DNA of 56,454 nt, taken from a virus. Made by a program: the position numbers and the translations under genes. Below, one piece after another: positions 15,867-42,498 of the stretch (positions are counted from its first letter, which is position 1; every line of letters starts with the position of its first letter). The DNA lies in IMG/VR virus record IMGVR_UViG_3300020477_000030, positions 1-56,454 of that record. The stretch is one strand, 5' to 3'. Below the pieces are notes generated by a model. It ran no database searches. It saw nothing but the letters and a program-made list of their open reading frames with translations, and was not told where the DNA came from.

Positions 15867-17126
15867 ATGTCTGAAGAATTTTTAGGTATACCAGATTTAG
15901 AAGTTATTGCTGATCCTGCTAGTCAAGGACTCTCCTCTTTAAATGTTGGACAAGAATTTGGTCAACCTCTTATTCCTGTTCCCCAATTCGAGCGACCTGA
16001 AGATTTTAGGGATTTCGTATCCCAGAACAGATTATTTGGCGGACCTGAGTTTGGACCTAATGATACACGCCTAGAGCAGCGAGGGGATCAATCAGTATTG
16101 GTTGATTCTGTAACAGGAGAACCTATTCTTGATCGATTTTCTAATTTCGCAATACCTAATGATGTACTCCTAGAGCAATCTCGCATTTTGCGTGACAATC
16201 CAGAATTTGGTCAAGGTCGTACTCCTATTATTGATCCTGTAACAGGAGAACCTGTTGGTCTTGTTCCCTTTGCTCCTATTATTTCTCCTGATTTATTTAA
16301 TGAAGATAGTTTTGAAAGTCAAGTTAATACGGCACTTGCTAATCAAGAATTTCAAGAAGTACCAAAAACAAGAAGCGAAATAGAAGCAGGACTAAGAGCT
16401 TTACAACAAGGAGCAGCTTCAATTAATCAATTTAGGCCACAACCAATTCCTGCGGGTGAATTACAACGTCAGGTTACTCAACAACCATCTGATGTAATAT
16501 TTGGAGGAGAGGATACTTCAGATTTTTTAATAGGAGGTGGAAGTAATGAGTTCGGAAGGACACCGACAATTGGACTATCTTCTGATTTTGATGCTATAAA
16601 TAGACGTATACAAAGTGAAGTTAGAGGTGAAAGACCCCCTCAACCACAAGAGATAATTAGAGAAGAAGCACCTAGAGAAGAAGCACCAACTCCAAGTTTT
16701 TTACGACAACTAATGGAGCAGTTTTTTAGAAATATTTTTCCAGGTCGGAAAGAAGAAGAACGAGCGGGTCTCCCATCTTTGTTCATATCTGAAGCTATGG
16801 CAGGTGAACTCCCAAAGCGAATACCTACAGAGCTACTCGCAAATCGAATACCTACAGGGCTAACTGGAATAACTACTTCTTATCCAGCCACACAAAAGAC
16901 TATACAAAATCTTACTAGGGGTAGGCCAGTATCCAGAAGAGAAAATTTAACTCCTCAAGAACAAGCAAGAGCAAGAAGGATAGAAAAAAGACGTAATGAT
17001 CCTGCATTACAGGCTGCTAGAGAAAGATTTTTAAGAGAGAACCGTTACCAAAAGAAAAAAGGTGGTCAAGTTTTAAAAGGTAGAGCTATGCGTAGTACAA
17101 ATTATAATCATCAAAAATTTATTTAA
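15867..17126 (+). CDS. Pro/Gly-rich virion-associated protein, unknown
   Basis: A 419-aa low-complexity protein rich in Pro, Gly, Glu and Arg. It carries DSVTGEPILD and DPVTGEPVGL repeats, the same DPVTGEP motif as the 40444 ejection-type protein; the DNA is identical over 23 bases between 16231-16253 and 40631-40653. Near the C-terminus YQKKKGGQVLKG matches the Gly-Gly tag of the 25-27 kb protein family. These links suggest a virion component although no fold is recognised. GGAGAAA precedes the ATG. It follows the HELMH gene. Confidence 0.65.
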   Translation: MSEEFLGIPDLEVIADPASQGLSSLNVGQEFGQPLIPVPQFERPEDFRDFVSQNRLFGGPEFGPNDTRLEQRGDQSVLVDSVTGEPILDRFSNFAIPNDVLLEQSRILRDNPEFGQGRTPIIDPVTGEPVGLVPFAPIISPDLFNEDSFESQVNTALANQEFQEVPKTRSEIEAGLRALQQGAASINQFRPQPIPAGELQRQVTQQPSDVIFGGEDTSDFLIGGGSNEFGRTPTIGLSSDFDAINRRIQSEVRGERPPQPQEIIREEAPREEAPTPSFLRQLMEQFFRNIFPGRKEEERAGLPSLFISEAMAGELPKRIPTELLANRIPTGLTGITTSYPATQKTIQNLTRGRPVSRRENLTPQEQARARRIEKRRNDPALQAARERFLRENRYQKKKGGQVLKGRAMRSTNYNHQKFI

Positions 17127-24317: not shown

Positions 24318-24998
24318 ATGCCTAACTTTTCGTTTTTAAAAAATGATTTGATTAATACAACTGAGAATGACTCAACTGAGTTTTCAGATCAAATACCTTT
24401 TTTTGTAGAAAAAGTAGAGAACAGACTTGCAAATGATCTAGACGATTTTGGTCTAGATTTTTTTGCTACTGTATCTTGTTCAATAGGAAATCCTATTGTA
24501 TCTCTTCCTGTTGATACAAAAATTGTAAGAAATGTAAATGTAATATCAAGTGCATCATCTACAAGAACTAATCTATTACCTAGAACTTATGAGTATGCAA
24601 TAGATTATTGGCCTCATGCAAGCGCATCCGTAGGCGATCCTAGATATTATTCACGTAAAACAAACACAGAGATTTATATTGTACCCACTCCTGCATCAGC
24701 AGTCGATATAGAAGTACAATTTGTTCGTAAACCTTTAGGTTTAGCTTCTGCAACTGGAACCAGTGTAACAACTTCTAATTATTTTAGTGAGTTCTGTTAT
24801 AATGCTTTATTCTATGGTTGTATGATCGAAGCTACCATGTATATGAAAAGTTGGAATGATCTTCAGATATGGGAAGGTCAATACCAAAACGCAATTAATC
24901 AACTTAGAAACCAGGCTCGTCGGACCCGACAAGATGACATGGCACAAGCAGCAAGTCCTGCTGGTGGTCCTGATACTGTTATTATGGGTTCAACTTAA
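24318..24998 (+). CDS. Head-tail adaptor protein (T7 gp11/P22 gp4-like)
   Basis: 226 aa: N-terminal helical (MPNFSFLKNDLINTTENDST, IPFFVEKVENRLANDL), central beta domain with IVSLPVDTKIVRNV, and a C-terminal helix bundle (FCYNALFYGCMIEATMYMKSW, YQNAINQLRNQARR). This is the pattern of phage adaptor or tail-tubular-A proteins sitting under the portal. A second protein with the same architecture lies at 27425. The end shares a base with the next ATG. Confidence 0.65.
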   Translation: MPNFSFLKNDLINTTENDSTEFSDQIPFFVEKVENRLANDLDDFGLDFFATVSCSIGNPIVSLPVDTKIVRNVNVISSASSTRTNLLPRTYEYAIDYWPHASASVGDPRYYSRKTNTEIYIVPTPASAVDIEVQFVRKPLGLASATGTSVTTSNYFSEFCYNALFYGCMIEATMYMKSWNDLQIWEGQYQNAINQLRNQARRTRQDDMAQAASPAGGPDTVIMGST

Positions 24999-25201
24999 TG
25001 GCTATTGGTAGAAGTAAAGTTTCAAAACAAGTATCTAAACCTAAACTAGGTTCAGGTAAAAGATTTAAAAGTTTAACAAAAAAGTTAAAAAAGAAGGGAG
25101 CTAAGAATCCCAAAGCTCTTGCAGCCTATATAGGACGAAAAAAATATGGGAAGAAAAAGTTTCAAAAATTAGCATCTAAAGGAAAAAGGAGAAAGTCATG
25201 A
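24998..25201 (+). CDS. Very basic small protein, DNA-binding candidate
   Basis: A 67-aa protein with about 40% Lys/Arg (KKLKKKGAKNPKALAAYIGR). It is coupled to both neighbours by 1- and 4-base overlaps. The charge would suit internal virion DNA condensation. It lacks the SLYD tag of the following genes. Confidence 0.65.
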   Translation: MAIGRSKVSKQVSKPKLGSGKRFKSLTKKLKKKGAKNPKALAAYIGRKKYGKKKFQKLASKGKRRKS

Positions 25202-25362
25202 AAGATTTTGTATCAGGTGCAGCAGCACGAAAGCTTCCCAATCTTGATCCAGATTTGAATGAGATCGTAGGTCGTCCTACAGGTCAGGGATTTGGTGCAG
25301 CTAGGAAAGGACCGAGTGTCGTAGCTTCTTCTGACAAAGACCTCATGAAAGAGGAGGACTAG
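25198..25362 (+). CDS. Small hypothetical virion-region protein (54 aa)
   Basis: The start overlaps the previous stop (ATGA). It begins MKDFVSGAAARKLPNLDPDL and ends SVVASSDKDLMKEED. GAGGAGG near its end is the ribosome-binding site for the next gene. The end resembles, weakly, the VASLYD tag of the next genes. Confidence 0.6.
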   Translation: MKDFVSGAAARKLPNLDPDLNEIVGRPTGQGFGAARKGPSVVASSDKDLMKEED

Positions 25363-25364
25363 TC

Positions 25365-26330
25365 ATGGCTGAACCTAAAAGTATTTCCCAAGCCCGTAAA
25401 ATGGGTAAAAGCTATTTTATAGGAAAAGACGGGAAACGAAAAGCTGCGGTTACAAAAGAAGAACTTGATGAGTCAAGATTATCTTTGCGTGATTATTTAA
25501 ATAAACAACGTAAAGCAAGGAGGACAGGTGCTGATCTTAGTGCGTCTAAACCTACAGCAAAGAGTGAAGGTAAAAAAGAACCTTCACCTACTCTTAAATC
25601 TAAATCTAAAAAGTATGTAGGTTCAAGTCAACGTCCTGATAATCGTCCTGTTAAATCTACTCCTAAATCTAAATATAGACCAAGAGGATCATCTGCTCCA
25701 CTAGGAGGAAAAGCTGATCCATATAAATATGTAGGTACAGGCCCAAGAGGACAAAAAGGTCAAGCTCCTGTTCCTACAACGGAAGAAAAAATAGCAATGG
25801 GTGGGCTTCTTATTGGTAATTTAGGCGGTCCAGGAGCAAAGGTTGCTATTAAAGCAGCTACAACATATGGAAAACCTTTTATAAATCAGCTAATAAGAAA
25901 AATTAAAGATTTATCTAATAAAGAACAAGAAGATATATTAAAGTCAGTTTCTCGAAGTAAGCTATCTAAAAAAGAAGTTACTGAAGCTATCAAAAATGCT
26001 GAGTCTCCACATAATATACTAGCAGAGGTAGCTCGACAAAAATCAGCAATATCTGTACAACGCGCCTCAGGAGAACCTCTTTTTAAAAGTACTGTAAGAC
26101 AAAAAAACCAAGCAGCTCGTAATAGAAAGAGGCGTCAAGAAACTAAAAGAAAAAAAGAATTAGAAAAAATGAATGAACAAGCAGCAGGTTCTACAAGGAT
26201 TCCTGGTGCTAAATTACGTAAAAAAGGCGGTCCTATTAAAAAATATAATGAGGGTGGTAAAGTTGTAAACCGTAAAGGCGGTGGACAGGTTATGTCAGGT
26301 TCTGATCTTGTTTCATCATTGTATGATTAA
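25365..26330 (+). CDS. Basic protein with Gly-rich/SLYD C-terminal tag (member 1)
   Basis: A 321-aa, very basic protein: N-terminal ISQARKMGKSYFIGKDGKRK, low-complexity Lys/Pro/Ser region to about residue 140, a small globular part with IAMGGLLIGNLGGPGAKVAI, then basic helix. The last 40 residues carry KKGGPIKKYNEGGKV, RKGGGQVMSG and the final SDLVSSLYD. That ending recurs in the next two proteins. The stop, ribosome-binding site and next start form a junction that is copied at 27151-27194. Likely packaged into or onto the virion, given its place between adaptor genes. No enzyme domain is seen. Confidence 0.7.
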   Translation: MAEPKSISQARKMGKSYFIGKDGKRKAAVTKEELDESRLSLRDYLNKQRKARRTGADLSASKPTAKSEGKKEPSPTLKSKSKKYVGSSQRPDNRPVKSTPKSKYRPRGSSAPLGGKADPYKYVGTGPRGQKGQAPVPTTEEKIAMGGLLIGNLGGPGAKVAIKAATTYGKPFINQLIRKIKDLSNKEQEDILKSVSRSKLSKKEVTEAIKNAESPHNILAEVARQKSAISVQRASGEPLFKSTVRQKNQAARNRKRRQETKRKKELEKMNEQAAGSTRIPGAKLRKKGGPIKKYNEGGKVVNRKGGGQVMSGSDLVSSLYD

Positions 26331-26341
26331 GGAAAAGTTAT

Positions 26342-26536
26342 ATGGCTATTTATTCTAAAGGTTTACAACGTCCTCAAAGAAAACCAGCAAAAGAAAGGCG
26401 TCAACGACAAATATCGTTTAAAAAACCTAGAATACGTAAAGGTAAACGTCCTCGTCCTTTTTCTGTTAAAAAGGGAGGACAGATAATAAATAAAAAAATG
26501 GGTGGAACTTTTTTTGTTGCATCTTTATATGATTAA
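26342..26536 (+). CDS. Small basic protein with SLYD C-terminal tag (member 2)
   Basis: 64 aa, almost entirely Lys/Arg with a Pro scatter (RKPAKERRQRQISFKKPRIR), then KKGGQIINKKMGGTFF and terminal VASLYD. Essentially a DNA-binding arm joined to the same tag as its neighbours. The start is 11 nt after the previous stop. Confidence 0.7.
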   Translation: MAIYSKGLQRPQRKPAKERRQRQISFKKPRIRKGKRPRPFSVKKGGQIINKKMGGTFFVASLYD

Positions 26537-26547
26537 GGAGAATTAAA

Positions 26548-27180
26548 ATGCCAGGACCAGCAGCTATACCTATTATTATGGCAGGAATATCAGCAGCAAG
26601 ATTAGTTGGACCTAAACTAGCTGAGTCTTTAATAAGTAGAGGACTAGCTAAAAAAGCAACAGGAGAAGCTGCAAAATTAGCTAAAAATAAAGTTCGATCA
26701 GGTACTACAAAAGAAATTAATCAAGTTAAAGACTTACCTGCTACTGTTCAAAATAAAATGCAATTTGGAATAAAAAAAGCACAACAAAAACCAAAATCAT
26801 CTTCATCTAAAATATCACAAGAATCTAGTACTGCTGCTCAAAATAGAGCAAGATTAAAACAAATGCAAGAACGAGAAGCACAACAAGAAGCAGCTAAACA
26901 AGCAGCTAAAAAATTAAAACCTAAAAGTGAAAGACAACGTGATCCACATATATCCTTAAAAGAAATAAGAAAAAGGAAGTTACTAGGTAATCGTTCATAT
27001 GAAAATTATTTAAATAAAGCTTTGAATAAAGAAAAAAATCAAGCTAGAGTTACTGAAAGTCCTACAACTCCACGTTCACAAAAAGATATGCGTCTTCCTC
27101 GTAAAGGTGAAACTATGAAACGTAAAGGTGGAGGTACGATAGGATCAGGTAATGATCTTGTTGCATCTCTGTACGATTAA
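26548..27180 (+). CDS. Basic protein with Gly-rich/SLYD C-terminal tag (member 3)
   Basis: 210 aa. The first 25 residues are hydrophobic (AAIPIIMAGISAARLVG), possibly membrane-active, followed by a long Lys/Gln/Ala-rich helical region (QQEAAKQAAKKLKPKSERQR). It ends MKRKGGGTIGSGNDLVASLYD in two blocks, the same tag as members 1 and 2. GGAGAATT precedes the start. Possibly an ejected or internal virion protein; inference only. Confidence 0.7.
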   Translation: MPGPAAIPIIMAGISAARLVGPKLAESLISRGLAKKATGEAAKLAKNKVRSGTTKEINQVKDLPATVQNKMQFGIKKAQQKPKSSSSKISQESSTAAQNRARLKQMQEREAQQEAAKQAAKKLKPKSERQRDPHISLKEIRKRKLLGNRSYENYLNKALNKEKNQARVTESPTTPRSQKDMRLPRKGETMKRKGGGTIGSGNDLVASLYD

Positions 27181-27191
27181 GGAGAAGTTAT

Positions 27192-27401
27192 ATGTCTAAA
27201 GAAAAAGTACATACTGAATCAGATCGCACTTATAATCCTATGAATCAACCAACGGCACCTCGTCCAAAACCAAAACCAAAATCTACAAAGAAAAAAATTT
27301 CTAAGCGTGGTGGTGGAGATTTTAAGATTGAAATGAAAATTCCTAAAGAAATGGTTAATCAAGGTGTAATGTATGGTTACAAAAAAGGTGGTCAAGTTTA
27401 A
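27192..27401 (+). CDS. Small basic protein with KKGGQV terminus (member 4)
   Basis: 69 aa, Pro/Lys-rich N-terminal half (APRPKPKPKSTKKKISKRGG) and ending YGYKKGGQV. It keeps only the Gly-Gly half of the tag, not SLYD. The start is preceded by the same GATTAAGGAGAAGTTATATG junction seen after member 1. Confidence 0.7.
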   Translation: MSKEKVHTESDRTYNPMNQPTAPRPKPKPKSTKKKISKRGGGDFKIEMKIPKEMVNQGVMYGYKKGGQV

Positions 27402-27424: not shown

Positions 27425-28099
27425 ATGGCAACTAGTGGTACATTTAATTTTAACCTTGATATAGACGAGGTTATACAAGAAGCAAGTGAAATGATCGGAG
27501 GAGAAAATACTCTTGGTCATGAACCTGCTTCTGCCAGACGTTCTATAAATCTGATGCTAACTGATTGGCAGAACAGAGGTGTTCTTCTATGGTCAACAGA
27601 AGTAACAGCCGTTACTGTTGCTGCTAGTGTTACATCTTATGCTTTAAGTAGTTCGACTGTAGATGCTTTAGAAGTAGTTGTAAATAGAGATAATACTGAT
27701 CTTCAATTAACTCGTATTTCATTTGAAGAATTTTTAATTATTCCTAATAAAACTCAAACAGGTAGGGCAACTCAATATACTATTAAACGAGATCGAGATA
27801 ATCCTACATTAAGTATATGGCCTATTCCTGATAACAGTACAGATATTTTAAAAATAGAGCGAATTAGTCAGTTACAAGATGTGAATAAATCAGCAGATCA
27901 AAATGCTGATCTTCCAAAAAGATTTTTACCTCCGTTGACTTGTGGTTTATCTTATTACATGGCAATGAAAAGACCTAATGTACCAAATGAAAAAATTGCA
28001 ATGTTAAAAGGAAACTATGAAGAACTTCTTTTACGAGCAATGGAAGAAGATAAAGAACGTGCAAGTATTTTCTTTAAACCTAAAATTAGGACTGTGTAA
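27425..28099 (+). CDS. Second adaptor/tail-tubular-A-like protein
   Basis: 224 aa: N-terminal helices with ARRSINLMLTDWQNRGVLLW (37-56), beta region VTSYALSSSTVDALEVVV, and a C-terminal helical end with LTCGLSYYMAMKRPNVPNEK. This matches T7 gp11/P22 gp4-type adaptor architecture. With the 24318 protein it suggests a two-ring connector. It ends with a TAATG overlap with the next gene. Confidence 0.7.
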   Translation: MATSGTFNFNLDIDEVIQEASEMIGGENTLGHEPASARRSINLMLTDWQNRGVLLWSTEVTAVTVAASVTSYALSSSTVDALEVVVNRDNTDLQLTRISFEEFLIIPNKTQTGRATQYTIKRDRDNPTLSIWPIPDNSTDILKIERISQLQDVNKSADQNADLPKRFLPPLTCGLSYYMAMKRPNVPNEKIAMLKGNYEELLLRAMEEDKERASIFFKPKIRTV

Positions 28100-28401
28100 T
28101 GGCAACAGATCGTAAAGCTTTAGCAGTATGTGATATTTGTAATTTTAGATATCCACATAGATTAATGAAGCTTAATAGCTTTGGTTTATTAGTTTGTCCA
28201 GAAGATTATGAAGGTTCTTTTGATTTAAAGAATCATCCTCAAAATAAAATTCCTGATGTAAGAGATGATACAAAAATAAATAATCCTAGACCTGATTCAG
28301 GAGGTCGTAACCTAGTGTGGAATACAGCAAACTTACTTTGGGAAGGAACTCCCAATAATATGAGTGATCAAGTAGTTTCACCAGTTTGGAATAGCGCATG
28401 A
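28099..28401 (+). CDS. Small zinc-finger-like tail-region protein
   Basis: 100 aa with CDICNFRYP (C11, C14) and a lone C35 in VCPEDYEGSF, a probable zinc-binding knuckle. The rest is polar and extended, ending in VVSPVWNSA. Similar small Cys-containing proteins sit between connector and fibre genes in marine podoviruses. Role unknown. Confidence 0.6.
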   Translation: MATDRKALAVCDICNFRYPHRLMKLNSFGLLVCPEDYEGSFDLKNHPQNKIPDVRDDTKINNPRPDSGGRNLVWNTANLLWEGTPNNMSDQVVSPVWNSA

Positions 28402-30413
28402 GTGATTTTGATTTAACAGGTAAAAGAATAGCAGATACTTACAAAGGTTTACTTAAACTAGCTGTAAGTGGTAATGGTGCAGTATCTTCATCTTTAACTC
28501 AAGTTGAAGGAGGAGATGGAACTAATACAGCTTTACTTGTAGCTACTAGTGCTATACGAGTTGGAGGTGCTTTTGCAGTATCTTCTAGCACATCTATAGG
28601 TGGTTCTTTAAAAGTTAATGGAGATGTATGTGCAAGCTCTTACTTTGGCAGTGGGCGTCATCTTACTAGTATTATAGCAAGTGGAGATACATCTGTTAGT
28701 TCTCTTATTGTAGCTAATACTGCTACAATTGGAGGAACTCTTTCGGTAGGTGGAGCAGTTAATTTTTTAAGTACAGCGACTGTATCTGGTAATTCAGGAT
28801 TTCTAGGAACAGTACGTGTAAGCGGAGCTACATCACTTGAAGGTGCTGTTAAGATGAACAGTACAGCTACTGTAAGTGGAGCTACAGGATTTCTTGGAAC
28901 GGTTAGAGTAAGTGGTAATACAACTGTAGGCGGAACTCTGGATGTAGCAGGTAATACGTCAGTAGGAGGAACACTTATTACAACTGGAGCAGCAACATTT
29001 GATGATGATGTTTCAGTTTCAGGTAATGTTAATATAGGCGGTACAGCAACTGTTGCAGGAGCAGCATCTATTGGTGGGGCTGTATCAATTGGAGGAGCCG
29101 TTAATTTATTAAGTACTGCAACAGTATCAGGCGCAGCAGGATTCTTGGGATCTGTTCGAGTTAGTGGAGCTACCTCACTTGAAGGAGCTACAGTACTAGG
29201 ATCAACTGTTACTGTAGCAGGAGCAGGACATTTTAAAGACGATGTTTCTGTAAGTGGTAATCTTAATATTGGAGGTACAGTTACAATAGCAGGAGCAAAT
29301 GTACAAGCAACTAATGCTAAAGTATGTGCCAGTGCTTTCTTTGGTGATGGTTCTAATTTAAGTAATGTCCCTGCTGTTATTACAGGTAATATATCTGTTA
29401 GTAATATATTAGTAGGAGGAACTGCCACAGTATCTGGTGATGCTACATTTAAAACTAATGTATCTGTAAGTGGTAATTTAGTTGTAGGAGGAACTACAAC
29501 AATAGTAGGTGCAGCTTCTATAGGAGGGGCTGTATCAATAGGAGGTGCAGTTAATCTTCTTAGTACAGCCACAGTATCTGGTGCAACAGGTTTCCTTGGA
29601 ACTGTAAGAGTTAGTGGTAATACTACAGTAGGTGGTACATTAGATGTAGCTGGTAATACCTCAGTAGGTGGAACATTTATATCTACTGGTGCAGCCACAT
29701 TCGATGATGATGTATCTGTATCAGGTAATGTTAATATTGGTGGAACAGCTACCGTAGCAGGGGCAGCTTCTATAGGAGGAGCAGTATCTATAGGAGGTGC
29801 TGTAAATCTTTTAAGTACAGCTACTGTTAGCGGTGCTACAGGATTTTTAGGAACAGTACGTGTAAGCGGTAATACAACTATCGGAGGCACGTTAGATGTA
29901 AATGGTAATACTTCTATAGGAGGTACATTCCTAGCTACAGGTGCAGCTACTTTTGACGATGATGCTTCTGTATCAGGAAATTTAAATGTTGGAGGTACAG
30001 CTACTATAGGAGGAGCAGCATTAATTACAGGTAATGTAAGTCTTGGTGGTCAATTCTTTTTAGCTAAGTCAGGAGCAGCAGCTATATCAGCAACAGCTAT
30101 TAATGGTATTACTTCTGTTTCATTAAACTTTTCTAATGCTCAAAATTTTCTTACAACAGTTACAGCCGCACATACATTAGCTAGACCAACAAACGCAACT
30201 AAGGGACAAACAGGAAGTATTTTCTTTGTACAATCAGGAGGTAGTGGAACATTAGCATATAATACTTGTTGGAAATTTATTGGAGCTAGTGTTCCTACTT
30301 TTGCTACAAGTAATGGAGCAGTATCTAGATTAGATTATATTGTTGTATCAATATCTAGTGACAGTACTGGTGAAAATATACATGCAATTTTAACAAATGA
30401 ATATGGACGTTAA
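28398..30413 (+). CDS. Repetitive beta-helical tail fibre protein
   Basis: 671 aa. Residues about 40-570 are a tandem array of short VSGN-x-x-IGGT-type turns (for example VSGNVNIGGTATVAGAASIG), the regular spacing of a beta-helix or trimeric fibre shaft. Longer blocks (SIGGAVNLLSTATVSGATGF to the FDDDVSVSGN turn) are repeated three times. The C-terminal 85 residues (NFLTTVTAAHTLARPTNATK onward) form a distinct cap that recurs in the 35292 protein. Ala/Gly/Ser/Thr/Val-rich, no cysteine-rich region. It follows the connector genes, so host attachment is the likely role. Confidence 0.8.
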   Translation: MSDFDLTGKRIADTYKGLLKLAVSGNGAVSSSLTQVEGGDGTNTALLVATSAIRVGGAFAVSSSTSIGGSLKVNGDVCASSYFGSGRHLTSIIASGDTSVSSLIVANTATIGGTLSVGGAVNFLSTATVSGNSGFLGTVRVSGATSLEGAVKMNSTATVSGATGFLGTVRVSGNTTVGGTLDVAGNTSVGGTLITTGAATFDDDVSVSGNVNIGGTATVAGAASIGGAVSIGGAVNLLSTATVSGAAGFLGSVRVSGATSLEGATVLGSTVTVAGAGHFKDDVSVSGNLNIGGTVTIAGANVQATNAKVCASAFFGDGSNLSNVPAVITGNISVSNILVGGTATVSGDATFKTNVSVSGNLVVGGTTTIVGAASIGGAVSIGGAVNLLSTATVSGATGFLGTVRVSGNTTVGGTLDVAGNTSVGGTFISTGAATFDDDVSVSGNVNIGGTATVAGAASIGGAVSIGGAVNLLSTATVSGATGFLGTVRVSGNTTIGGTLDVNGNTSIGGTFLATGAATFDDDASVSGNLNVGGTATIGGAALITGNVSLGGQFFLAKSGAAAISATAINGITSVSLNFSNAQNFLTTVTAAHTLARPTNATKGQTGSIFFVQSGGSGTLAYNTCWKFIGASVPTFATSNGAVSRLDYIVVSISSDSTGENIHAILTNEYGR

Positions 30414-38341: not shown

Positions 38342-38535
38342 TGACTAATGAAGAATATTTTAAGTTTATTAACGATAGTACTTTGATAGGTAATTTGAAT
38401 CAAGGTCAGATTATGTTGCCTGAGTTATATAATATTCAACAGAAGTTTCATCCAATTCAAAACGTATCTAGCATAAATAATAATCCACAATCTAATTATG
38501 CTTCTTTTGGAGACAGATATGCTACCAACAAATAG
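38341..38535 (+). CDS. Small hypothetical protein
   Basis: 64 aa from the ATG at 38341, whose A is shared with the previous TAA; the longer frame from 38323 is not needed. Polar, Asn/Gln-rich (MTNEEYFKFINDSTLIG). It overlaps the next gene by 17 bases. Confidence 0.5.
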   Translation: MTNEEYFKFINDSTLIGNLNQGQIMLPELYNIQQKFHPIQNVSSINNNPQSNYASFGDRYATNK

Positions 38536-40432
38536 AAAATTTGAAGACTTTATGGATTTTAGAGATATGATTCAAGGTAATTCTTTGAATGACCGTAGAG
38601 AAATGGTTCAGTATATATCTAAAAAGCCTAGAATTGGTAGAGCATTAGGTGGACAAGCAACGCCAGCATCAAGACAATCTGTAGAAAAATCTATGGGAGA
38701 TAAGAGAATAGCAAAACCAGGAGATTCTTTAGCTGAAATATTTGTAGAATCAGCATTAGCTAAAAATCCAAATCTATTTGATAAATTTTATAAACAACAA
38801 TCTAAAATATCTGATGGTACTGAAATAATAAAAAGAGGTCTTACAAGTTTACCTGTAGTTGAAGCAAGTTTTGGTGGATTTCTAAAAGACTTTGGTATAG
38901 GAATTGCAAAAAGTGTAGTAGGAGATATAGCAGGAGAAGTTGTTGGAAGTGCGTTTGAAGGTTTTGCTCCTGGTATAGCAGATGCATTAGGAACTACAGC
39001 AGGGAAAGCATTGTTTGGAGCAGGTACAAATGCTTTGTTTGATTATGGAGCTAAAGAAGTTTTTGGTTATGGTCAAGGACCAAGTTTTGAAAATTTTGCT
39101 ACAGACGCTTTATTTAGAGGAGTAGCAGATTATTATTCTACACCAGAAGATGAACGTGCTTTTTTTGGTGAATTAGGTTTAGATGAAGAAGAAGATGCTA
39201 AAAAAATAAAAGCTATACAAGATGCTAGGAAAAAAATTAGAGCTTCTCGTTTAGGTGAATTAGAGTTTGATACGAAAGGACCAAGAGGAGGTTCAAGAAG
39301 AGAAGAACCTGCACCATTTATGGATCGTGTTAAACAATATGGTAGATATACAGGACCATCTGGTGGATTAAATTTAAAAAATCTAGCAATACGAGCCTAT
39401 CCTGCTGCTGCTAGTGCTATAATGAAAGCATCAGCAGTACCTGCACAACCTCAAGGTATAGGACAACAGCAGATTCAACCTAGTAGAGTAGCACGGTTAA
39501 GTCGTGAAGTAGGTGGCTTACGAGGTATTACTGTTCCTGCTAAAGTAGATAGAAATGAACTAAACCAAAGACAAATTACAGAATTATCTACAAAAGGATT
39601 TACTATTCATAAGGGAAAACGAATTACTCGTCAAGACTTAATAGGTCGTACAGAATATGCTAGACGTACTAAACCTCTTGCAACATCAGCTACAGGTGGT
39701 CTTGTTTCTTTAAAAGATAATGGTGGTCCTGTAGTTAGTGATGCTCAAAAGGCTTATATGAATTGGTTAGATTCAGTGGGTGGTCCTGGTGCATTAAGTA
39801 AAAGAGGTTTACAAAGTAGACGTATAGATGAAGTTATAGAGGAGGGTGAAGCTGGTCCTCAATATTTTAGTTACCATCATCAAGGAAATGAAAGAGGTGT
39901 AGGAATGTATGATGATATTCCACAAGACTATCATGACTTTCCTTTTGCATATCCTGAACATCCAGCTTTTAGAAGTTTAAATGTTTTAGGTGGTGGACCT
40001 GGAGCAGTTCCACCTAGAGTATTTCGATCTTTACAAAAAATAGCTCCTTCAGATTCTAACAGAGAATTTGTTTTAAGATTATTAGGACTTCAAGAGGATG
40101 ATGATCTTATAGAAGCAAATCAAGGTGGTTCTCTCATGGGAAATCAATTCTCAGGAATGGTAGGTGGAGATGGGCATGGTATGGAAGATAATGTCCAAAT
40201 GCCTATTGTATCAGATGGAGAACAGGTAGCTACTCTAGCTGTAAGCCCAAAAGAATATGTAGTTGATGCATATACAATGTCAGCATTAGGTAATGGTAAT
40301 GCTGATGAAGGTGCAAAGATTATGGATGAAACAATTAAATCTATCAGACGTAATGCATACGGTACAAGTAAACAACCTAATGAAATTAATGGTACAAAAG
40401 CCCTGAGATCAGGATTAAGTAGTTTAGGATAA
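38519..40432 (+). CDS. Internal/ejection-type virion protein with Gly-Gly motifs
   Basis: 637 aa from the ATG at 38519, chosen for the GGAG 7 nt before it. The first half contains Gly/Ala-rich hydrophobic helices (GGFLKDFGIGIAKSVVGDIAG) able to insert in membranes. The second half has ATGGLVSLKDNGGPVV and ANQGGSLMGN, like the Gly tags at 25-27 kb, and a conserved-looking VATLAVSPKEYVVDAYTMSA. It comes before two more large internal proteins, so it fits the ejectosome group (compare T7 gp14-16) by position. No enzymatic motif is seen. Confidence 0.65.
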   Translation: MLPTNRKFEDFMDFRDMIQGNSLNDRREMVQYISKKPRIGRALGGQATPASRQSVEKSMGDKRIAKPGDSLAEIFVESALAKNPNLFDKFYKQQSKISDGTEIIKRGLTSLPVVEASFGGFLKDFGIGIAKSVVGDIAGEVVGSAFEGFAPGIADALGTTAGKALFGAGTNALFDYGAKEVFGYGQGPSFENFATDALFRGVADYYSTPEDERAFFGELGLDEEEDAKKIKAIQDARKKIRASRLGELEFDTKGPRGGSRREEPAPFMDRVKQYGRYTGPSGGLNLKNLAIRAYPAAASAIMKASAVPAQPQGIGQQQIQPSRVARLSREVGGLRGITVPAKVDRNELNQRQITELSTKGFTIHKGKRITRQDLIGRTEYARRTKPLATSATGGLVSLKDNGGPVVSDAQKAYMNWLDSVGGPGALSKRGLQSRRIDEVIEEGEAGPQYFSYHHQGNERGVGMYDDIPQDYHDFPFAYPEHPAFRSLNVLGGGPGAVPPRVFRSLQKIAPSDSNREFVLRLLGLQEDDDLIEANQGGSLMGNQFSGMVGGDGHGMEDNVQMPIVSDGEQVATLAVSPKEYVVDAYTMSALGNGNADEGAKIMDETIKSIRRNAYGTSKQPNEINGTKALRSGLSSLG

Positions 40433-40443
40433 AGGATAAAAAG

Positions 40444-42498
40444 ATGGCATCATCATTTTTAGGTACAGGATTTTTTCAACCACAGGCTCGTCCAGGTGGA
40501 GTAACTGTTGCAACAGAACGCCTTGCGGAGGAAATTGCTCCTTTTATGCAAGACTATCTGGAGCGAGAATCTGCTCTTGCTACACTGCGTTCTGAAGGAT
40601 TACGAGATGAGGTAACTGGAGAACTGGTTCTTGATCCTGTAACAGGAGAACCTATTGATCCAGGTGGATATAAAGCATTTACAGGACCAACTATTGCAGA
40701 TTTTACTGGTGAACAACTGGCTGCTCAACGAGGATTAACTAGTCTTGCTGGCTTTGAAACTACAGTTGATCCTGTTACTGGTGAGCGTACTGTAACTGAG
40801 ACAGGCCCAGGTATAGCTGGGACTCGTTTTGCTGATGCTGAAGCTTTAATACGAGGACAGCAAGAAGAATTTACAGCAGATACTGCTGAAAAGTTTATGT
40901 CTCCTTTTCAACAAGCTGTTGTAGATATAGAAAAAAGAGAAGCACAACAAAAGTTTGAACAAGATGTTTTACCTAAAGTACAAGCTGCTGCTATTCAATC
41001 AGGATCGTTTGGTGGGAGTCGTGGTGCTTTACTAGAAGCAGAAGCTTTAAGAGGACAACAGCAACTTCTAGGAGATATACAATCTAAAGGATTACAATCT
41101 GCTTATGATCGAGCTAGGCAAGATTTTGAAGCACAGAAATCTAGAGAACGTGGACAGGCTCAAGCATTAATAGGATTATCTCCTGCTGAAACTGCTCAAC
41201 GTACTAGAGAACTTCAGGGATTAGAACGTGTAGGTGCAGCACAACAAGCACAAACACAAACTGCTCTTGATGAAGCGTATAAAGAATTTCTTGAAGAACA
41301 AGCATTTCCTGAAACTGTTCTTGATCGTATGCAATCAGCAGCATTTGGTTTTCCTGCTCTTAGACAAGAAGTTAGGCAATCTCCTACTACCTTTGGTCCC
41401 TCTCCTTTTGCTACTTTAGCATCTGGTGTAGGTGCTATTGGAACAGGTGTTGGTAGTCTCTTTGGTCAGCTAGGTGGTAGTAGGGCAGGGAAACGTAAGC
41501 ACGGTGGGATTGTGTCTCGTCGTGATGGTGGACTTGTACCTTTAGTATCAAGACAAAATGGTAATGTAGTCTATGAAGGAGAACGTCCAGACTTTAGTAT
41601 TCCAACTACAGAAGATACTCCTGAAAATGCAATGTTAGCCTTACTTAGAGCAAGAAAAACTGCACAAGAACGTGCTGCTATACAAAGAGAAGCATTGAGA
41701 AAAAAACAAGCTGCAAGAATAGAAGCTCGAAAAGCTAGGCTTGATGAGAGAGCAGACCCTTTAAAATTATTTTTTAGAGGATTAATGCAAGCAGATAAAA
41801 TGCCCGCAAGCGGAGATTATCGTGATGCTGGTATGTTTGGAGGGTTAAATCTTCCAGCTATTGCACAAGATATAGATACAAGAAAAAGTACATTAGAAAA
41901 AGAATATAAAACTTTAGAAGAAAGAGATGAAGATACTCGAATTGCTGCAATGCAAGCAGATATTGATCGTATGGAACAACAAGCTGAACAAGATATAAAA
42001 GATGAAGAAAGGTTACAACAATTTAACATAAGAGAAAGAACCGCAAATTTAGCAGAACTAACTCAAAAAACTAATGAAGAACTAAAAAGACAAGAGTTAT
42101 CAATACTTAGTGATGCAGAACTTAATAAATTAACAATAGCAAGGCTTGAAAGAGCTAGAAAAAATAGAAAAGACGAAAAAGAGTTTGATTTAAAAGTTAC
42201 TAGGTTAGGTGTAGAAATTGGAAAATTAAAACAAAGTATAGGTGAAGCACAGGCTAAAATTTTAAATAGTAACGAATTTAAAGATTTACTTGCTAATAGT
42301 GAGTTTAGATTAGCTGAAGAAGCGGCGCGACGAGCAGGTATAGATGTAGATACTATAAAATATTTAAGAAATATTTTAACTCAAGAAAATAAAACTAAAG
42401 TAGAATCAGCGTCTCAAACCTCACCGCCAACAGACCCTGTTGATATGGAAAAAACTATTAGAAATCTAGAAGAACAAGCAAAAAGATTAAGAAAGTAA
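40444..42498 (+). CDS. Ejection/internal virion protein, coiled coil
   Basis: 684 aa. Residues 50-110 contain DPVTGEPIDPGG and DPVTGERTVT, the motif shared with the 15867 protein. A long Gln/Glu/Arg-rich coiled coil spans about 130-280. RKHGGIVSRRDGGLVPL (about 350-366) is another Gly-Gly tag-like element, here internal, after which a second charged helical half begins. That internal tag could mark a processing site between two parts. Position before the 1280-aa protein supports an internal virion role. Confidence 0.7.
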   Translation: MASSFLGTGFFQPQARPGGVTVATERLAEEIAPFMQDYLERESALATLRSEGLRDEVTGELVLDPVTGEPIDPGGYKAFTGPTIADFTGEQLAAQRGLTSLAGFETTVDPVTGERTVTETGPGIAGTRFADAEALIRGQQEEFTADTAEKFMSPFQQAVVDIEKREAQQKFEQDVLPKVQAAAIQSGSFGGSRGALLEAEALRGQQQLLGDIQSKGLQSAYDRARQDFEAQKSRERGQAQALIGLSPAETAQRTRELQGLERVGAAQQAQTQTALDEAYKEFLEEQAFPETVLDRMQSAAFGFPALRQEVRQSPTTFGPSPFATLASGVGAIGTGVGSLFGQLGGSRAGKRKHGGIVSRRDGGLVPLVSRQNGNVVYEGERPDFSIPTTEDTPENAMLALLRARKTAQERAAIQREALRKKQAARIEARKARLDERADPLKLFFRGLMQADKMPASGDYRDAGMFGGLNLPAIAQDIDTRKSTLEKEYKTLEERDEDTRIAAMQADIDRMEQQAEQDIKDEERLQQFNIRERTANLAELTQKTNEELKRQELSILSDAELNKLTIARLERARKNRKDEKEFDLKVTRLGVEIGKLKQSIGEAQAKILNSNEFKDLLANSEFRLAEEAARRAGIDVDTIKYLRNILTQENKTKVESASQTSPPTDPVDMEKTIRNLEEQAKRLRK

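Follow-up and report, generated by a model that had tools for sequence, protein, structure and literature searches.

Encapsulin cargo-loading peptides are short C-terminal sequences that bring unrelated cargo into an HK97-fold shell, and the C-terminal domain of P22-type scaffolding proteins can load fused cargo into procapsids. In phage T4, the internal proteins Ip1-3 have no common homology except an N-terminal packaging leader, and detection of this signal sequence led to the finding of internal proteins, three of which are injected anti-restriction proteins (PMC12373910). The T4 CTS, 10-19 amino acids long and with a targeting role proven by fusions, is removed by the prohead protease gp21 (PMC9026906), and infectivity of T7 requires positively charged residues at the C-terminus of gp16 (PMC8954989).

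We analysed an IMG/VR virus record of 56.5 kb (G+C 35.9%), hereafter the window, in which consecutive small basic proteins share their final residues. Like the T4 internal proteins, this locus would carry a short portable address on otherwise unrelated small accessory proteins whose content changes quickly (PMC9026906, PMC12373910): the carriers are unrelated in sequence (109 representatives, disjoint body families, body swaps), and they are encoded by variable accessory genes, here a variable capsid/adaptor block on one strand. Unlike the N-terminal T4 CTS, the tags described here all lie at the extreme C-terminus and fall into at least four classes. Podovirus ejection proteins (T7 gp14-16, SU10 gp20-24) are similar in their cell-wall functions, here LysM, and in the basic C-terminus of T7 gp16 (PMC8954989), but they are few, mostly large and have no tag in common, and the tagged proteins of the window have no sequence match to ejection families in PHROG or Pfam. 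The coat-binding domain of P22-type scaffolding is likewise C-terminal and basic, although it is a folded helix-turn-helix on one protein, whereas here a short motif, predicted as coil in low-confidence models, occurs on many. Encapsulin peptides, likened by description, share the short C-terminal peptide on unrelated proteins; the setting here is instead a phage head module.

Tagged genes and copied junctions in the window

The structural genes of the window are on the plus strand, with tail and ejection-type genes after the second adaptor:

From 13409, plus strand: terminase
From 17379, plus strand: portal
From 20305, plus strand: GroES-like
From 22906, plus strand: major capsid
24318..24998, plus strand: adaptor 1, an SU10-type adaptor protein, upstream edge of the tag block (Pfam PF24175, E=3.2e-18)
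27425..28099, plus strand: adaptor 2, SU10-type adaptor-like, downstream edge of the tag block (Pfam PF24175, E=4e-10)

The two PF24175 genes bracket the tag block in the window and in relatives alike. By portal and capsid, the closest cultured relatives are the Pelagibacter phages HTVC023P and HTVC027P, 023Pt_psg01, the Roseobacter phages CRP-901/902 and phage DSL-LC04, with identities of about 40% for portal and 50-54% for capsid. Sequence searches matched no solved structure to the window capsid, adaptor 1 or portal. Further downstream, a 671-aa protein (28398-30413) with many near-identical repeats (GGTATVSGA.., IGGAVSIGGAVNLLSTATVSG) is probably a tail fibre. Between the adaptors, the features are as follows:

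25198..25362, plus strand: untagged 54-aa gene directly before the tagged block, at the same place in L010, L013, L017, L032 and L034
25365..26330, plus strand: tagged gene 1, 321 aa, net charge +45 (tag HMM E=4.6e-18)
26271..26330, plus strand: tag 1, RKGGGQVMSGSDLVSSLYD plus stop (sequence; tag HMM)
26301..26344, plus strand: junction copy 1 (tag end, stop, RBS, next start), 37/44 to 27151-27194
26342..26536, plus strand: tagged gene 2, 64 aa, net charge +18, ending in KKMGGTFFVASLYD (tag HMM E=5e-12)
26495..26536, plus strand: tag 2, KMGGTFFVASLYD plus stop (sequence)
26507..26550, plus strand: junction copy 2, 33/44 to copy 1; 37-nt family of three
26548..27180, plus strand: tagged gene 3, 210 aa, net charge +28; orthologues elsewhere end GYKAGGKV (alignment)
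27121..27180, plus strand: tag 3, RKGGGTIGSGNDLVASLYD plus stop (sequence; tag HMM E=2.2e-15)
27151..27194, plus strand: junction copy 3, 37/44 to copy 1; 37-nt family of three
27192..27401, plus strand: tagged gene 4, 69 aa, second tag class, ending VMYGYKKGGQV
27360..27401, plus strand: tag 4, QGVMYGYKKGGQV plus stop (sequence; pattern family in IMG/VR)

The sequence and its open reading frames confirmed an earlier sequence-only reading that three consecutive basic genes end in SDLVSSLYD, FFVASLYD and NDLVASLYD behind bodies that otherwise differ: the three bodies are not homologous, and body-only searches retrieved disjoint families. That reading had placed the start of the block at 25198, which is instead the start of the untagged 54-aa gene; the first tagged gene begins at 25365. 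A fourth gene with a KKGGQV ending is present as described, although it belongs to a separate class, GYKxGG[KQ]V; in its family alignment the GG near RGGG and the final GYKKGGQ are nearly invariant and the N-terminus is variable. Comparing all window C-termini with one another as 14-mers, 3 of 3,081 pairs scored at least 25, versus 0 of 2,346 for internal segments. The window tagged proteins had no PHROG or Pfam family match and no recognised domain, and the 210-aa protein had no homologues among phage records.

Close relatives retain the 54-aa gene (MKDFVSGAAARK...FGAARKGPSVVASSDKDLMKEED) at its place between adaptor 1 and the variable block; the FGAARKG..VVASS stretch of this gene is like the tag elements, yet internal. 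Gly-Gly versions of the tag had also been proposed in three virion-type proteins elsewhere in the window. Only the protein at 15867-17126 has one near the C-terminus (KKKGGQV, about 20 residues from the end); the sites in the proteins at 38498 and 40444 are internal and are not the tag. We excluded these internal sites, which look like a different repeated motif, GG[IL]VxLxxGG. An internal [KH]xGG[IL]VxLxxGG recurs in the ejection-type proteins at 38498-40432 and 40444-42498 and in their homologues in genomes G001-G010; the 40444-42498 protein belongs to phrog_4287 and has no C-terminal tag.

The near-copying of the junction DNA between 26301-26344 and 27151-27194, previously counted by eye, is exactly 37 of 44 bases, and in its longer form the repeat extends over 93 nt at 74%. 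Random 44-mers of the window (n = 200) reached a median of 26 matches at their best site elsewhere (range 23-34).

Tag classes at the head module of related viruses

Among relatives, the repertoire of endings is wider than SLYD and comprises LYD, YKGG (GYKxGG[KQ]V), RGxGxA (GAALRG[YF]GK) and NRLY; 109 tagged representatives with less than about 45% mutual identity have about five tag classes between them. We scanned IMG/VR with degenerate DNA of the tag, making no use of neighbouring genes; GYK and RG figures cover the matches listed. GYKxGG[KQ]V and LV[AS]SLYD occurred almost solely in the capsid-adaptor module of this marine podovirus group: 93 of 98 GYK matches among those listed, and 38 of 43 SLYD matches, were in loci with a homologue of the window capsid or adaptors, all on the same strand. 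Three of the five GYK exceptions were on one 1.6-kb stretch and the other two had the terminase or portal of this group alongside; among the five SLYD exceptions, three had no open reading frame or a different frame and look like chance. Among the matches listed, 108 of 109 for GYK were in frame at an ORF end. The GAALRG[YF]GK pattern holds no stop codon, so C-terminal placement is not imposed by the search; even so, 77 of 87 in-frame matches ended 3-8 residues before a stop and 79 of 88 were in loci with genes of the same module, again among the matches listed. A stricter GYK pattern had no matches in 257 Gb of bacterial and archaeal genomes. Literature searches with the strings GYKKGG and RRKKTK returned no papers, a weak sign given that such strings are seldom printed.

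The sequence-only reading had suggested asking whether tagged genes cluster at head loci, and they do, whether loci are anchored by tag pattern, by adaptor or by capsid. When 79 loci were retrieved through their adaptor homologues, tags ended 50% of the distinct genes lying between the adaptors, 6% of those upstream of adaptor 1 and none of 71 minus-strand genes. In 11 complete or partial genomes, tagged genes were confined to one region, except for two clear false positives in large tail proteins. As a tag-independent anchor, we picked 80 loci by capsid similarity alone and scored the four classes LYD, YKGG, RGxGxA and NRLY. Within 5 kb downstream of the capsid gene, 87 of 207 basic genes were tagged (42%) versus 1 of 233 non-basic genes (0.4%); upstream, the counts were 2 of 42 and 8 of 472, respectively, and on the minus strand 0 of 114. 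At least one tagged gene was present in 40 of the 46 loci with enough sequence, compared with 14 of 46 under earlier, narrower patterns; the higher figure is partly post hoc, because the patterns were widened after these loci had been viewed. Post hoc widening alone does not explain the contrasts between basic and non-basic genes and between zones.

The tags in this region differ from genome to genome; in one, four successive genes end GGK[IV]MxGYKAGG[KR]V. Each of the loci L288, L290, L296 and L325 has two or three basic genes with a further shared ending, [SC]xHN[RS]LY. In the cultured phage HTVC023P, two non-neighbouring genes (L087:7656-8393 and L087:18481-18864) share the end RGxGAAxRGxxFxGV (RGVGAAIRGHKFIGVK and RGGGAAVRGMGFKGVF). 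Runs of tail-type proteins share another C-terminus, GGSGIVIIRYKFQ, in HTVC023P (L087:22242-27938) and 023Pt_psg01 (L089:22472-26679). A basic protein ending CARSAGQMKKFPKAAKNPNSRLRQARRRWRC (DUF6321) is conserved in the block of relatives (L034:2339-2662, L043:8969-9259, L029:7968-8267) and was not seen in the window's block. HTVC027P, CRP-901/902, Pag-Yong1, RW and QDWS535 had no such tags in the stretches examined; the trait is therefore not universal among cultured relatives of the same capsid family, and any address would not be essential to this capsid type.

Exchange of bodies and constraint on the peptide

The proposal that the tag is portable and has moved from protein to protein is strongly supported, since the same tag ends unrelated bodies, different tags end homologous bodies and synonymous sites are saturated. 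For the tagged gene that comes first after adaptor 1, compared across 16 distinct close relatives, median identity was 0.32 over the first 80 residues (shuffled, 0.22) and 0.80 over the last 20. In phages whose adaptors are 98-100% identical, N-terminal identity was at the shuffled level (0.17-0.24) and last-20 identity was 0.95-1.0; in the pairs L014/L016, L020/L023, L020/L029 and L020/L032, with adaptors 99-100% identical, the N-termini were likewise at the shuffled level and the last 20 residues were identical. DNA homology in body-swapped pairs is an island of about 60-180 nt with sharp upstream edges, whose downstream end falls at the stop codon or slightly beyond it in several pairs. Conversely, relatives of the 210-aa protein have a common QKGMRLPRKGET..RKRGG followed by either SGNDLVASLYD or GYKAGGKV, and LysM proteins carry endings of the LYD, GYK, ALRG or LYQGG types.

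In GYK pairs with unrelated bodies, tag pS was 0.59, versus 0.60 in unrelated upstream sequence. Conserved tag columns reached 0.45-1.0 against a background of about 0.1, some of the highest being fixed by the search pattern; among residues outside the pattern, G(-10) of the LYD class reached 0.94 and K(-12) and M(-10) of the GYK class 0.61-0.63, against the same background. Retention of tag residues despite saturated synonymous sites points to selection on the peptide. The pN/pS of outside-pattern columns was 0.72 and 0.95 (upstream, 1.16 and 1.27); the ratio is not low, since numerous columns lying between the fixed ones are free to vary and both classes have reached saturation, and the alignment-based argument for peptide-level selection is accordingly one of individual fixed columns. 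Pooled dN/dS over the last 16 codons of body orthologues was uninformative, as tag-class swaps inflate pN, and within-class columns outside the search pattern were used for this reason. Codons at fixed tag residues vary, at some positions more narrowly than background, which shows that shared descent or copying played a part.

These data bear on two explanations that need no function for the ending. Ordinary local duplication would make the three genes paralogues with diverged bodies, in keeping with their adjacency and near-copied junctions; the disjoint families from body-only searches and the synonymous saturation rule out simple paralogy of the three, and other phages have the same tag on other bodies at the same place, such that duplication is extremely improbable. 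Alternatively, the ending could be only a recombination linker, shared junction DNA that promotes cassette exchange without a protein function. The junction copy does run past the stop into the ribosome-binding site and start, the homology of body-swapped genes is a sharp-edged island at the tag, and a short fixed spacing from tag to next start is common. Yet the codon data disfavour a linker alone, DNA downstream of the tag is only weakly conserved across GYK loci, and a neutral linker would not keep the frame and C-terminal place seen in nearly all GYK matches listed, so we regard this explanation as improbable. A recombination-joint role for the tag DNA would be an addition to an address rather than an alternative to it.

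A candidate virion address and its alternatives

LysM is a peptidoglycan-binding domain. When 106 tagged representatives were compared with Pfam, it was the sole recurrent domain (six members), apart from related LysM models, and 29 of 30 LysM ORFs in the fetched loci were basic genes with a tag end (classes judged by eye). Some tagged proteins have a hydrophobic N-terminus; most tagged bodies lack LysM. AlphaFold models of two tagged proteins, both of low confidence, predicted the tag as coil. On a capsid tree in which some loci had been fetched by tag pattern, tag class changed fewer times than with shuffled labels: 13 versus 36.1 for LYD, 9 versus 34.9 for YKGG, 19 versus 36.6 for RGxGxA and 5 versus 8.8 for NRLY. 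This agreement may be plain vertical inheritance, which alone gives the same sign; taken with the turnover of bodies, it suggests that the partner of the tag belongs to the virion lineage.

The LysM domains and hydrophobic N-termini would also suit envelope-acting or lysis-phase proteins that bind the wall outside the head, with a tag that recognises a host or phage envelope partner and not a part of the virion. The tagged genes, however, are flanked by capsid and adaptor genes and do not sit in a lysis module, their tag class tracks capsid phylogeny and the majority of bodies have no LysM, making this reading unlikely. The strong basicity of the proteins and the recurrent Lys/Arg-Gly-Gly elements raise the idea of nucleic-acid-binding, RGG-like tails, which would let the proteins enter the head bound to DNA or compact that DNA. 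We find this distinctly unlikely, because charge-driven DNA binding has no need of strict C-terminal placement and the most constrained LYD residues are hydrophobic, aromatic or acidic (V, Y and the terminal D). Proteolysis can depend on C-terminal identity, and the ending could be a stability signal that protects against C-terminal proteases. It could also be a processing site, given that the prohead protease cuts off T4 targeting sequences (PMC9026906). However, the same loci have four chemically different endings, and no protease partner was recognised in the block; either role is very improbable.

The most likely explanation, in our view, is that in marine podovirus-like viruses the fast-changing small basic proteins encoded next to the capsid genes, which otherwise have little in common, share a short swappable ending that addresses them to the same place in the virion. 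We give slightly better than even chances to these endings serving accessory virion proteins as a C-terminal address for docking or packaging, much as the T4 CTS works. Such an address would be a short linear element on accessory proteins that turn over fast, are small and very basic, and are encoded in the stretch between the two adaptors. Its partner, specific to the lineage, would be the coat, scaffold, portal or ejection-protein core of the virion during assembly, and would recognise the last 10-20 residues, typically [KR]xGGx[IV][MG]xG followed by xLVASLYD, YKxGGKV, AALRGYGK or NRLY. Capsid or scaffold, the targets named in the sequence-only reading, are candidates for this partner. Any basic protein with such an ending would be carried in the particle and could be released with the DNA; the LysM domains and hydrophobic N-termini of several members would fit accessory ejection proteins that act in the cell envelope. 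As the tag DNA is a shared island of homology, recombination through it could exchange bodies while the address is retained. One genome may hold two tag classes (in the window, LYD three times and GYK once), and this counts against an address, as a single receptor would need to accept several ends.

A fuller version, which we hold tentatively and at less than even odds, is a C-terminal cargo-loading code of at least four interchangeable classes, inherited with the capsid lineage, through which the head is loaded with rapidly exchanged basic proteins (effectors or ejection proteins, some bearing LysM), the tag DNA serving as the recombination joint that admits new cargo. If the address is real, sequence alone would predict which of the many unknown small proteins in uncultured marine phages travel in the virion as cargo, and the tag would offer a short C-terminal handle to load proteins into a podovirus head. 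It would also explain in concrete mechanistic terms how phages can trade cargo that still fits their own particle.
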